This document shows positions 13,156-22,394 of a stretch of DNA of 64,000 nt, piece by piece. The notes beneath the pieces are model-generated. The model was not told where the DNA came from and did no database searches. It saw nothing but the letters and a program-made list of their open reading frames with translations. Positions within the stretch are counted from its first letter, which is position 1, and each line of letters opens with the position of its first letter. The position numbers and the translations under genes were made by a program. The DNA comes from Synechococcus sp. C9 (GTDB lineage Bacteria; Cyanobacteriota; Cyanobacteriia; Gloeomargaritales; Gloeomargaritaceae): contig NZ_JALAAD010000001.1 of assembly GCF_022984075.1 (NCBI RefSeq), forward strand, positions 1,964,455-2,028,454. The letters run 5' to 3'.

Positions 13156-13183
13156 TTGACAAAAACTATTTTTTTGCTATCAT
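13156..13183 (+). promoter_or_regulatory. Sigma-70-type promoter for the ATPase cassette
   Basis: TTGACA at 13156-13161 and TATCAT at 13178-13183 are separated by 16 bases. This is close to the consensus and lies 52 bases upstream of the first gene of the three-gene cassette, in the right orientation. Confidence 0.65.
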
Positions 13184-13235: not shown

Positions 13236-14057
13236 ATGTCAGGTATCTCGGATTGCATCGTTCGCCCGGCGGAACTGGAGCAATTATTGAAATTAAGTCA
13301 AAAAATTAGAACCGGGGTGCAACGGTTAAAAACCGCCAGTGACCAACTGAATATGCGAGACTATCGGCGAACGATTACGGATTTGGAACAAGACATCGGG
13401 CAATTTTGGGGTATTTGGCAGGAATTTATCGGCATAAGCCAGACTTTTGCTGAACAAATGCAGGAATTTCTACACAGTGCCGATTATGCAGAACGGATGA
13501 CGAATGCCTTAACATCGGTTAAAATTCCCTGCACGGGTGATTTTCCCAATTACGATATTCCCCCGTTCAAACTGTCCATCAAACCGAATCAATCCCTAGC
13601 GAAACTGAGCTTGGGGAAAAAAAGTTCCCAGACCCATGCTTTGGCTCCGACAATTTTGGCGGATTGGGTGGTTGAGAAATACAAAGCCTTACTGAACCGT
13701 CCTTTTGCCCAAGACCGGTTTTGCAAAGAACTCCTCAGCGTTTACCCCTATCTAACCCAGGGGAATTGGGGGACGCTGGTGCCACTCCAGGAGGTTTACA
13801 AACTCCTGACCTTGAAAACAGAAACCCGGCAAGAATATCCCGAATCCCATTTTATTTTTGATTTAGGTCGGCTCCTCGACCAGTATGAAATTACCTACGC
13901 AGGATATTACTTTGATTTCAGTTCCCACAAAGAAACAAAAAAGAACTATACCGTCATCAATCCGCAGGGGCGGGAGAAGGCAATTGGCATGATGAGTATT
14001 CGGCAAATCCCTCAGGAAACCCAGGATACGACACCGATTCAACAGGGAACTAATTAG
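13236..14057 (+). CDS. Unknown protein, first gene of the paired-ATPase cassette
   Basis: I do not recognise a family for these 273 residues. Residues 1-95 are predicted helical with many heptad-like hydrophobics (AELEQLLKLSQKIRTGVQRL and TITDLEQDIGQFWGIWQEFI), perhaps a coiled-coil or dimerisation region. A Pro-rich linker follows (IPPFKLSIKPNQ). Residues 140-245 look like a compact alpha/beta or winged-helix-type domain (DWVVEKYKALLNRPFAQDRF to LLDQYEITYAGYYFDF). No catalytic motif, membrane segment or signal peptide is visible. It is promoter-proximal and lies 8 bases before the first ATPase gene, so it probably works with both ATPases, for example as an adaptor or DNA-binding partner. That is inference from position only. 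Confidence 0.7.
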   Translation: MSGISDCIVRPAELEQLLKLSQKIRTGVQRLKTASDQLNMRDYRRTITDLEQDIGQFWGIWQEFIGISQTFAEQMQEFLHSADYAERMTNALTSVKIPCTGDFPNYDIPPFKLSIKPNQSLAKLSLGKKSSQTHALAPTILADWVVEKYKALLNRPFAQDRFCKELLSVYPYLTQGNWGTLVPLQEVYKLLTLKTETRQEYPESHFIFDLGRLLDQYEITYAGYYFDFSSHKETKKNYTVINPQGREKAIGMMSIRQIPQETQDTTPIQQGTN

Positions 14058-14065
14058 AAATTTTT

Positions 14066-15241
14066 ATGTTGATAGAACCCGATGATTTATGGCTTTTGAG
14101 TAAGGGACAACCCCCCCAAAGTGATGAGCTATTGCAACAAATGACCCTTAGTCGTCATACTTGGCTAGATTATATCCATGACCGTTATCTCAAAAACTAT
14201 ATTGCCCAGGGGGGGAGTAAAGTTAAATTGCTCGTAGGCGGGCAGGGCACCGGCAAAACCCATCTGTTACGGGTTGTGCTTGCGGATGGGAAAAAATTAG
14301 GGTATCAAACGGTTTATTTATCCGCCCGGCAGTGTCCCTTGAATGATTTGGTTGGTCTCTATCAACAGATCGCCCGCCAAGTGGTGAATGAGGATTTAGT
14401 GCGGGGTCTATGCTGTCGGGTTGCCCGGGCAATTTCGGAAACCACGGACTATGATGGGGCAGGGGTATTTGCGCCCCAAATTTACGACGAATATCCGAGT
14501 CCAACTTTGGCGAATGACCACATCCGCAAAACCGCAGGCAAAATTATTAAAAAAACTGACTTAAGTTCTTCTTTTAAGGCTTTTGCTTACCAAGTGGTTT
14601 GTCACCGCATGATCAATCATTCCCCCGCCAATATTGAGTTAGTGTGTCAATGGCTGATGGGACAACCTTTAGAGCGACAGGATCGGGAAGCCTTCTATTT
14701 GTTTGAAAAATTAAATAAAACGAACGCTAGGGATTGGTTAAATTCCCTGATTTTATTATCCCAATTCGCTGGTAAAAAAGGCTTAATTATTGCCATTGAT
14801 GACCTGGAGGTTATCGCCGAAAAAGCGCACGGCAATCGCTACAATTTTACCAAGAGGCAGGCGGATGACATTTGCGAGTTAGTCCGGCAGATTATTGATG
14901 ATACGGAAATTCTGAGTGGTTGCTTCTTTTTATTGAGCGGTAGAAAAGAAATCATTGCCGACCACCCCCGCAGTTTTCGTTCCTATGATGCGCTATGGAT
15001 TCGTTTACAAACCGGTTTGGCTGATTACAAACGATTTAATCCTTTTGCGGATTTAGTAGATGTGGACAAACATTTAGCCGCCCAGGGGGACACCTTTGGG
15101 AGCCGGATTTTTGCCAAGATCAAAAGTTTACTTAGGGATGTGGAATTGGGTGACATTCAGCCCCCGGAAAACTATCGTTCCCTCACCAGTGAACTGCAAC
15201 AGATGGTGATTGATGCCGTGTGTGAACGGGGAGGTAACTAA
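14066..15241 (+). CDS. BrxC/BrxD-like P-loop ATPase, first of two
   Basis: A 391-residue STAND/AAA-like ATPase. Walker A is LLVGGQGTGKTHLLR at about residues 53-67. Walker B is GLIIAIDDLEVIAEK at about 240-254, with the acidic pair DD. A sensor-1-like strand follows in GCFFLLSGRKEI. The N-terminal placement of a target motif (LSRHTWLDYIHDRYLKNYI) before Walker A and the long insertion between Walker A and B match the DUF2791 family (now BrxC/BrxD), ATPases of BREX and related phage-defence loci. Family assignment is from pattern recognition, not a profile search. The gene has only a weak ribosome binding site and is 8 bases from the upstream gene. Confidence 0.65.
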   Translation: MLIEPDDLWLLSKGQPPQSDELLQQMTLSRHTWLDYIHDRYLKNYIAQGGSKVKLLVGGQGTGKTHLLRVVLADGKKLGYQTVYLSARQCPLNDLVGLYQQIARQVVNEDLVRGLCCRVARAISETTDYDGAGVFAPQIYDEYPSPTLANDHIRKTAGKIIKKTDLSSSFKAFAYQVVCHRMINHSPANIELVCQWLMGQPLERQDREAFYLFEKLNKTNARDWLNSLILLSQFAGKKGLIIAIDDLEVIAEKAHGNRYNFTKRQADDICELVRQIIDDTEILSGCFFLLSGRKEIIADHPRSFRSYDALWIRLQTGLADYKRFNPFADLVDVDKHLAAQGDTFGSRIFAKIKSLLRDVELGDIQPPENYRSLTSELQQMVIDAVCERGGN

Positions 15242-15244
15242 CTC

Positions 15245-16477
15245 ATGAATCCCACCTTGGCAACGCAGATTATTGAATCCTTACGGGCGGGGATTCCCAC
15301 CAGAGCCTCCACCTTGAATTTGAAAAGTATGCGAAATCGGTTGCATGAACAATTCAACCAGGATTTGTCCCAGTTATCGGAAGGCAGAGGTATCCCGCAA
15401 GGACGGTTGATTTGGGGGAAATATGGGCAGGGCAAAACCCATGAATTGACCTGTTTAGAACACCTAGCCCTTGACCAGGGATTTGCAGTCAGTCGCATTA
15501 CCCTAAACCGTCAACTTTCGGGGCAGAGACTCGATCATTTATACAGCAAACTGGCGGCTTTCATTCGCACACCCCAATCCCGTTTGTTAGGCATTCGGCA
15601 TATTTTAGACCAAAAAAGTTCTGCGGATTTACCCCACACTTTGATCCAAAATTTTGACCGATATACCCATCCCTTACCGGCGATTATTTTAGAAGCCTAT
15701 TTTCACACCTCATCGGAAGAACAGGAATTATTGTATAACCTCCTACTGGGTGGACAGATGCCCATTTCCGAAATTCGCAAAATTTATAAAAGAACAGTGG
15801 GAAGTTCCTTGCCCCCCTTGCCTGGGAATTTTGTGCGGACAAGACATAGCCAAGCCTACTTTGAATTGATGGCTGATATTCTGATTTGGTGTGAGTATCG
15901 GGGCTGGGTGATTTTGATTGATGAAATCGAATTAATTGCCCGTCTAGGTACAGTAGGTCGTCTGAAAGCCTACCATCATTTACATTGGTTGCTGAATTGT
16001 GGCGGGGAACAAACCCTGCCCATTTACACGGTGGGGGCGGTGGCGACATCTTTACTGGATTTGTGGCAAAATCCCCAGGGGCGCAATCAACTCCCTGACC
16101 AAAGCCGGATGTGTGAATTGGCGAAAGAACGGAATAACGGTTATTCAGAAGCAAAAATGCGTACTTTTTTTACCTATGCTCAGGACGAACGGATATGTCC
16201 ATTTATCGAACCCATGAACCGGCAACAATTAAAAGAATTACTATCAGAAATTACCGCTATTCATGGTATCAGCTACGGGTGGCAACCGGAAATTGATATT
16301 GACCGGGTGATCAATGCCATCGGCAATGACCCCGTTCGCACCCACATTCGGGGTTTATTGGAAACCTTAGATATGCAGTATTTAGGGGATAGGGAATTTG
16401 TGCCCCGGACAAGCACCCTCACGGAATTAAGTACCGAGGAACAAGAATCCTATTTTCAAGAAGAAGTGGAACCATAA
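15245..16477 (+). CDS. BrxC/BrxD-like P-loop ATPase, second of two
   Basis: A 410-residue ATPase clearly different in sequence from its neighbour but of the same architecture. Walker A is LIWGKYGQGKTHELTCLE at about residues 55-72, Walker B is GWVILIDEIELIARL at about 217-231 (acidic pair DE), and the sensor strand is LPIYTVGAVATSLLDLW. The segment RLKAYHHLHWLLNCGGEQTL after Walker B corresponds to the helix seen in DUF2791 proteins. A strong GGAGGT at 15230-15235 lies 9 bases before the ATG, inside the end of the previous gene, so translation is probably coupled. Two unequal P-loop subunits side by side suggest a hetero-oligomer. No nuclease, helicase or methylase is encoded downstream; a dispersed repeat begins 9 bases after the stop. 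Confidence 0.65.
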   Translation: MNPTLATQIIESLRAGIPTRASTLNLKSMRNRLHEQFNQDLSQLSEGRGIPQGRLIWGKYGQGKTHELTCLEHLALDQGFAVSRITLNRQLSGQRLDHLYSKLAAFIRTPQSRLLGIRHILDQKSSADLPHTLIQNFDRYTHPLPAIILEAYFHTSSEEQELLYNLLLGGQMPISEIRKIYKRTVGSSLPPLPGNFVRTRHSQAYFELMADILIWCEYRGWVILIDEIELIARLGTVGRLKAYHHLHWLLNCGGEQTLPIYTVGAVATSLLDLWQNPQGRNQLPDQSRMCELAKERNNGYSEAKMRTFFTYAQDERICPFIEPMNRQQLKELLSEITAIHGISYGWQPEIDIDRVINAIGNDPVRTHIRGLLETLDMQYLGDREFVPRTSTLTELSTEEQESYFQEEVEP

Positions 16478-21266: not shown

Positions 21267-22394
21267 GAATAGATACCAGAAGTGTTGAAAGGTAGGTAAA
21301 GGCAGAAAAAGAGGGGTCAAAATATGGTATTCTAATCCATATAAACCAAAACATGAAACAACTATGAAATTCAATTCTTTTCCAGGGATTGTCAAATTTT
21401 TGCTCAAAGACCTGCCGACTAATGATTATCCAGTTCTAAATTCTCGCTTATTTTGTTCAATCTGGTTTACTGGCATTTTAGACAAAGGAATCAACAGTTT
21501 ACGGGACTTATTTTACCAATTAAATCATGCGGGCATTAAGGTTGACTTATCCACATTTTCTAAGGCGAACAAGACAAGAGACCCACAAATTTTTATGCAT
21601 CTTTATCATAAATTATTGCATTATATTGAGTCAGCTTATCCTGAAAAGAGGTTGGTTTTATGTCCTTTTGATGCTACCGTAATACCGCTGATGAGTAAGT
21701 TATTTTGGCTCCAAGGCTATCGCCAAGTAAAGTTAATAACCACTTTGAATCAAGATACGAAATCCACGGGTCATTTAATCGTTAGTCCTGGAGGGGCACA
21801 TGAGATTAATTTTGGTGAAGATATTGTGAAAATGTTGCCGGAAAATGGAGTCGCAGTCGGGGATAGAGGGTTTTGTAGTCACAAAGTATTTGACCAATTT
21901 ATCGAAAATGATGCCCTTTTTATTATCCGTATTAAGTCGAATTGGAAATGGGATGAAAACTATCATATCACCACAGAACGAGGTAAGGTGAGAGTCGTTT
22001 GTTTTGGCAATGTTCAACAGAAAGTAGACTATTATTTAGCTACCAATATTCCTGAGGATGTAATGAGTAATGAAGAGATAGGGGAAGCCTACAGACAACG
22101 CTGGGCGATAGAGGTACTATGGAAATTTCTAAAGATGAACTTAAAGCTGGATAAAATGATGAGTAAAAATTTGAATGGAATTACCATCCAAATTTATGTA
22201 ATTTTAATAGTTTATTTGATATTGCAACTGTTAAAAGTTCCACGGATGTATGGAAGTAAATTAGTAGATAAGTTCCGATATATACAAATTTTAATACGGC
22301 AGGAGTGGAATTTTGTCCATTGGCTCAATCGGGTCGTCCCACGCCTCAATATGTAAAGTTTTGTTGCAGGATTCAACACTTGTGAATAGATACC
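21267..22394 (+). mobile_element. Complete IS4-like insertion sequence with 11-bp target duplication
   Basis: The element is 21278-22383 (1106 bp). Its outer ends are AGAAGTGTTGAAAG and, on the other strand, ACAAGTGTTGAATC, a 14-bp terminal inverted repeat with three mismatches. It is flanked by the direct repeat GAATAGATACC at 21267-21277 and 22384-22394, the target duplication, 11 bp, within the 9-12 bp usual for IS4-type elements. It carries one transposase gene with no apparent defect and sits in codons 5-8 of the restriction gene. Confidence 0.88.
21364..22356 (+). CDS. IS4-family-type DDE transposase
   Basis: The 330-residue transposase moves the surrounding insertion sequence by DDE chemistry. 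The catalytic acids are placed at CPFDATVIPL (first Asp), VAVGDRGFCSHKVF (second Asp) and YRQRWAIEVLWKFLK (Glu), the last being the Y-(2)-R-(3)-E-(6)-K signature of IS4-type enzymes. The N-terminal part (NSLRDLFYQLNHAG, VDLSTFSKANKTRD) is the DNA-binding region. It is AT-rich with Lys/Ile-heavy codon use unlike the neighbouring chromosome. The frame is full-length with no internal stop, so the element may still be active. Confidence 0.88.
   Translation: MKFNSFPGIVKFLLKDLPTNDYPVLNSRLFCSIWFTGILDKGINSLRDLFYQLNHAGIKVDLSTFSKANKTRDPQIFMHLYHKLLHYIESAYPEKRLVLCPFDATVIPLMSKLFWLQGYRQVKLITTLNQDTKSTGHLIVSPGGAHEINFGEDIVKMLPENGVAVGDRGFCSHKVFDQFIENDALFIIRIKSNWKWDENYHITTERGKVRVVCFGNVQQKVDYYLATNIPEDVMSNEEIGEAYRQRWAIEVLWKFLKMNLKLDKMMSKNLNGITIQIYVILIVYLILQLLKVPRMYGSKLVDKFRYIQILIRQEWNFVHWLNRVVPRLNM

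Follow-up and report, generated by a model that had tools for sequence, protein, structure and literature searches.

Three adjacent genes of Synechococcus sp. C9, encoding a protein of a new family (p1) and two unlike ATPases (p2 and p3), recur as a unit across bacteria, often beside one of several kinds of motor gene, and therefore appear to encode a so far undescribed accessory machinery for the loading or control of DNA motors. They lie in a 64,000-nucleotide stretch of the genome, hereafter the window. An earlier sequence-only reading of this stretch had taken the trio for a minimal defence or DNA-surveillance system; we found no description of the trio in the open-access literature searched.

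Organization of the locus

The three open reading frames were recovered where the sequence-only reading had placed them, all on the forward strand, with gaps of 8 bases between p1 and p2 and 3 bases between p2 and p3, and they form a tight operon in the window (Table 1). The Walker motifs assigned to both ATPases and the strong ribosome-binding site ahead of the last gene also stand, and the P-loop residues and the first Walker B aspartate are invariant across homologs. The proposed near-consensus promoter is present, but a looser scan gave six sites against 6.6 in shuffled sequences; because loose sites are no commoner in the region than in shuffles, we treat it as suggestive only. The trio is flanked on the left by DoxX and response-regulator genes and on the right by glyoxalase, ispG and ctp peptidase genes, and we agree that no helicase, methylase or nuclease gene adjoins it in these flanks. 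The trio has a G+C content of 45.6%, compared with 52.8% across the window. An ORF of 330 aa that appears by eye to be IS4-type transposase-like (window positions 21364-22356) lies approximately 5 kb away.

Table 1. Features of the three-gene locus, in window coordinates
Feature	Position	Strand	Description
p1 ORF	13236..14057	+	273 aa, new family, adaptor-like; predicted long helical hairpin, small beta section and helical domain ending in beta strands
p2 ORF	14066..15241	+	391 aa, BrxC/BrxD-type AAA+ ATPase that keeps Walker A but has D246 in place of the catalytic Glu
p3 ORF	15245..16477	+	410 aa, BrxC/BrxD-type AAA+ ATPase with a complete set of catalytic motifs and a predicted fold like that of ORC/Cdc6
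Walker A of p2, GGQGTGKTH	14237..14263	+	G58, G61, G63 and K64 invariant (n=49 homologs)
Walker B of p2, IAIDDLE	14789..14809	+	D245 in 49/49; position 246 is Glu in 1/49
Walker A of p3, GKYGQGKTH	15416..15442	+	G61, G63, K64 and H66 in 47/47 homologs
Walker B of p3, ILIDEIE	15911..15931	+	D226, E227 and E229 in 47/47 homologs
Sigma-70-like promoter site, TTGACA-N16-TATCAT	13156..13183	+	53 bases before p1 start; consensus match 11/12
Ribosome-binding site ahead of p3, GGGGAGG	15228..15234	+	Sequence motif

A module conserved across bacteria

Scanning 84,980 species of bacteria and archaea yielded 80 loci, a number that is a lower bound because the search relied on short peptide patterns. These loci span Cyanobacteria, Bacillota, Atribacterota, Coprothermobacterota, Cloacimonadota, Chloroflexi and others, and the closest record to the window trio, with 96% identity, is from Gloeomargaritales VI4D9. 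In 74 of the 80 loci p1 is present upstream of p2 and p3 with the order kept; four of the other six end at a contig edge and two (L100 and L122) look like damaged copies. Fewer than 150 bases separate p1 from p2 in all loci but three. Conservation of order and orientation in other phyla indicates that the association is far above chance.

Within a phylum-wide sample of 386 cyanobacterial genomes, seven carry close p3 homologs (E below 1e-85), and all seven have p1 and p2 beside p3 in unchanged order. An independent search of the same sample with a p1 profile returned these seven trio genomes and three others (G089, G097 and G175), in which p1 adjoins paired BrxD-like ATPases. There were also two weak partial matches, one to a split p1 remnant beside a divergently oriented ATPase (G013) and the other to a longer protein with no ATPase alongside (G118). 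Pairwise tree distances of the three proteins correlate at 0.90-0.98, values to which shared species history contributes and none of which was reached in 1000 permutations. Judged by their sequence trees, p1, p2 and p3 co-evolve, and the survey that had been suggested of whether the three genes travel together is answered in the affirmative.

Two further gene arrangements were observed in cyanobacteria. A lone BrxD-like ATPase, about 445 aa long, is common in one large cyanobacterial family (L041, L042 and approximately 30 further genomes, mostly of family f7), and L041 has a DEAD-like helicase gene near it in a layout resembling Shango. In three Chroococcidiopsis-like genomes a related gene, GIY-YIG-like by eye, lies divergently upstream of the trio (L049:5086-5787, L050:5004-5885 and L051:4691-5470), which may be host synteny.

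Two unequal ATPases and a new protein family

The profile search that had been called for gave scores of 63.7 bits for p2 and 65.4 bits for p3 against a cut-off of 22.2 (E-values of 2e-17 and 5.8e-18), so that both proteins, with their P-loop motifs, are members of the PF10923 BrxC_BrxD ATPase family. Matches to the BrxD equivalog of NCBIfam, at 55.3 and 54.8 bits, fall far under its 350-bit cut-off, and those of the trio ATPases to the SngB profile are weak. An AF2 model of p3 (pLDDT 90.5) searched with Foldseek against the PDB has archaeal Orc2 and Cdc6/Orc1 as its best matches, with modest similarity (E 3e-4, TM approximately 0.4), and the predicted fold thus points to an AAA+ protein of the ORC/Cdc6 class.

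The two ATPases differ in their catalytic motifs. Walker A and the D-E-x-E of Walker B are intact in p3 and its homologs (47/47), whereas p2 retains Walker A and the first Walker B aspartate and lacks the catalytic glutamate in 48 of 49 sequences, this position being occupied by Asp in 35, Asn in nine, Gln in two and Gly, Glu or His in one each. In the divergent trio of G175 (L037:7534-10618), p2 has lost both Walker motifs and p3 keeps both. This asymmetry suggests that p3 is the hydrolysing subunit and that p2 is a nucleotide-binding or structural one. The hetero-oligomeric p2-p3 ATPase that had been envisaged remains plausible.

The first protein had been described as belonging to no recognised family, and profiles of Pfam, NCBIfam, PADLOC and PHROGs indeed gave no match above noise. 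Structure prediction of p1 alone, also proposed earlier, produced a confident AF2 model (pLDDT 92.4) with no match at E<=0.001 among the PDB and viral structures searched; this structure search recovered neither a recognised DNA-binding fold nor an enzyme-like match. The most conserved positions (P110, Y201, L166, F157, G245, Y170, P138, D209 and R212) form a pattern that appears structural, not catalytic, and the homolog alignment contained no conserved cluster of catalytic-looking residues. A relationship to TerB proteins was considered and rejected, with no match to Pfam TerB and 0.1% by hhalign with a TerB protein. Of the two roles offered for p1, effector or adaptor, we therefore prefer the latter: the lack of a solved-fold match and of catalytic-looking residues makes an adaptor likelier than an effector. 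The p1 family combines a confident structure prediction with no known match and no annotation.

DNA motors beside the trio

A motor gene adjoins the trio in 46 of the 80 loci and is of four kinds. The commonest is an XPB/RadD-like SF2 helicase (34 loci, mainly Lachnospiraceae), which is usually divergent; BrxL lies 0-58 bases downstream in seven loci of other phyla, an SNF2 helicase is found in four Bacillota loci, of which L070 is a borderline case for the distance limit, and an SF1 helicase in one locus. Another 17 loci with flanks have no motor gene beside the trio, including every judgeable cyanobacterial locus and the window itself, while the remaining loci are cut. Phylogeny of p3 groups the XPB-linked rows into a single supported clade and puts the BrxL-linked rows at two positions, though on long branches. 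The recurring partner theme of the trio is a DNA-acting motor. The suggestion of a minimal system without a helicase is consequently limited to some lineages, the window's included, because many relatives carry a motor beside the trio. The helicase linked to the trio in Lachnospiraceae has similarity to PbeA; kinship with Pbe was considered on this basis and rejected, Pbe being an HKD-helicase/ABC-ATPase/DndE system (PMC6459918, PMC10853773).

A remote four-gene version (L126:9855-15281 and L043:7036-12445) consists of a p1 relative, two BrxD-like ATPases and, directly downstream of the second ATPase, a BrxHI/SngC-like helicase. Kinship of the first protein of L043 and L126 with p1 is given by hhalign (97.5%) and by profile search (E 6.5e-19 and 5.8e-23), and in these BrxHI-linked relatives both ATPases keep D-E and have complete motifs. 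The L126 copy is carried on a plasmid, pDESTI.01, with AbiE toxin-antitoxin genes and a ParA gene in its vicinity. In a further copy of the four-gene version (L044:6522-9609) the second ATPase is cut short beside a transposase-like gene, and type I restriction-modification-like genes adjoin it; the transposase-like and restriction-modification-like genes were assigned by reading of their sequences.

Proposed mechanism and biological role

We consider it an even call whether p1, p2 and p3 form one complex, in which an asymmetric ORC-like AAA+ pair and an adaptor load or license a DNA motor; both complex formation and motor loading are what we infer from the data above. In such a complex p2 and p3 would assemble into an asymmetric hetero-oligomer, an AAA+ ATPase of ORC/Cdc6 class, with ATP hydrolysed by p3 and p2 mainly binding ATP or serving as a structural element, and p1 would be a non-enzymatic coiled-coil adaptor linking the ATPases to DNA or to the partner. 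The complex would sense a DNA state and then load, activate or license a separate DNA motor, encoded next door in other lineages (XPB/RadD-like SF2, SNF2, SF1 or BrxL, and BrxHI/SngC-like in the remote version). For the genome that contains the window, the motor would have to be supplied from elsewhere unless the complex acts alone. A tentative generalization, to which we give somewhat less than even odds, is that the asymmetric ORC-like pair and its adaptor constitute a general-purpose motor-loading module whose motor has been swapped several times and, in cyanobacteria, acts in trans or is unneeded. For BrxD- and SngB-type ATPases acting with helicases, loading has so far been proposed only; since a loader-like core is kept here while the adjoining motor changes, the loader idea becomes directly testable in a compact three-gene unit.

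The trio is an accessory, patchily distributed module. Apart from the trio and the motor, no neighbour gene is widely common to the 80 loci. In the window's own family, Gloeomargaritaceae, it occurs in three of eight genomes, and four of the five trio-free genomes are at least 96% complete. Three congeners among these four retain the right flank (glyoxalase-ispG-ctp), but a clean empty site was sought in them and rejected, as the left neighbour is different and no insertion border can therefore be read. The sequence-only reading had named universal, syntenic conservation in cyanobacteria as an outcome at odds with defence; the trio, with its seven occurrences in the phylum sample and three in the family, is no such set, and the reading thus passed its own test.

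The neighbourhood was less favourable to a defence role than this patchiness. Only a few of 150 neighbour genes match defence families (methyltransferases, Cas7b, SspH and DrmC), a count made without a background set. The neighbours are mostly ordinary genes and do not appear to form clear defence islands, again with no background comparison, and the surroundings in the window are of housekeeping type. A phage or viral origin of the trio was rejected when phage and viral searches and PHROGs gave no matches. Two individual neighbourhoods were also recorded: a Cas7-like gene (the Cas7b match of the neighbour scan) lies closely downstream of one trio (L061:5901-6863), and in Thermosyntropha a row of Hsp70-like, metallo-beta-lactamase-fold and two unknown genes lies 3' of a frameshifted trio (L074:3901-10509).

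The trio likely acts against invading or foreign DNA, a reading suggested by its kinship with BREX and Shango, its patchiness, the partnership with BrxL and the plasmid copy, but left unproven because of these mostly ordinary neighbours. The main rival is a role in DNA repair or genome maintenance, in which the ORC-like ATPases would place a repair helicase at damaged or stalled host DNA. Such a role fits the XPB/RadD-like type of the commonest neighbouring motor, the ordinary surroundings and the failure of our searches to find phage or viral copies. We nevertheless judge it unlikely, though worth serious consideration, as it sits poorly with a distribution that is patchy even inside one genus, with the frameshifted copies (L047 and L074), with the BrxL partners in seven loci and the plasmid location of a remote version, and with the relationship of the trio ATPases to those of BREX and Shango. 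The original proposal of a self-contained defence system, with p1 as effector and the ATPases as sensor, is in our view improbable: it accounts for the 17 motor-free loci and for p1 being the least conserved of the three proteins (A4, 31% mean column identity, with a shorter conserved core), but not for the want of a catalytic-looking cluster or enzyme-like match in p1, nor for the motors found with this trio in other lineages.

Candidates for a partner encoded elsewhere in the window's genome were also considered. No match was obtained for an SNF2 helicase of Sporomusa type (DUF3670), and an XPB-like partner was rejected, only weak SF2 matches being found, equally among relatives that have the trio and those that lack it. 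The genome does contain a BREX locus, which includes PglX, PglZ and BrxL and is situated approximately 1.07 Mb from the trio (G000:C1:888000-907000, L137); small toxin-antitoxin-like genes lie between these three. In Gloeomargaritaceae BrxL and the trio co-occur in the same three of eight genomes, a link that is suggestive at most, as the three Gloeomargarita genomes possibly represent a single subclade, in which case the co-occurrence may go back to one event. We rejected BrxL as an obligate partner, since four other trio-bearing cyanobacteria of the phylum sample (G245, G284, G016 and G007) gave no BrxL match; that the trio is an accessory to BREX, working in the window's genome with the BrxL of this separate locus, is for the same two reasons very improbable, despite the direct neighbourhood of BrxL and the trio in other phyla.

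Comparison with known systems

BREX loci are recognised by PglZ, BrxC and usually a PglX methyltransferase; the trio locus is not a BREX system, and the BREX locus of the same genome lies elsewhere. Shango (SngABC) comprises a TerB-domain protein (SngA), an ATPase and an SngC helicase adjoining the ATPase. The trio resembles it in joining an ancillary protein to a BrxD/SngB-like ATPase, and in the SF2 helicase of its relatives, but it is not Shango: p1 has no TerB match and is unrelated to the TerB protein, there are two ATPases, and no SngC-like helicase is present in the window flanks.

BrxL resembles MCM, and BrxC and BrxD carry ORC-clade AAA+ domains (PMC10164562). The pairing of BrxC (ORC-like) with BrxL (MCM-like) in type 1 BREX has a parallel in the seven loci where ORC-class ATPases of the trio lie beside BrxL, although BrxC is much larger (1200-1300 residues; PMC12839542), and PglZ and PglX were not found beside the BrxL-linked trios. 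These copies would open an ORC/MCM-like pairing to study outside full BREX. Archaeal Cdc6/Orc1 heterodimers and eukaryotic ORC share the predicted fold class of p3, and a loader of two unlike AAA+ subunits is an analogy, but identity is approximately 12% and we did not recognise a winged helix at the C terminus of p3.

A further parallel is the BrxD-BrxHI dyad of type 2 BREX. BrxD and BrxHI are grouped as a dyad in a survey of BREX and its relatives published in 2026, which reports a proposal that BrxD loads or activates BrxHI; our searches of its main text turned up neither cyanobacteria nor a pair of ATPases accompanied by a protein like p1 (PMC12839542). Dyad and trio share PF10923 ATPases of the ORC/Cdc6 class and, in L043 and L126, a BrxHI-like helicase 3' of them. 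The trio differs in having two unlike ATPases together with p1, in having no BREX core genes beside it, and in scoring about 55 bits where the BrxD cut-off is 350. The trio is thus neither BREX nor Shango and is a new variation on the BrxD-helicase theme.
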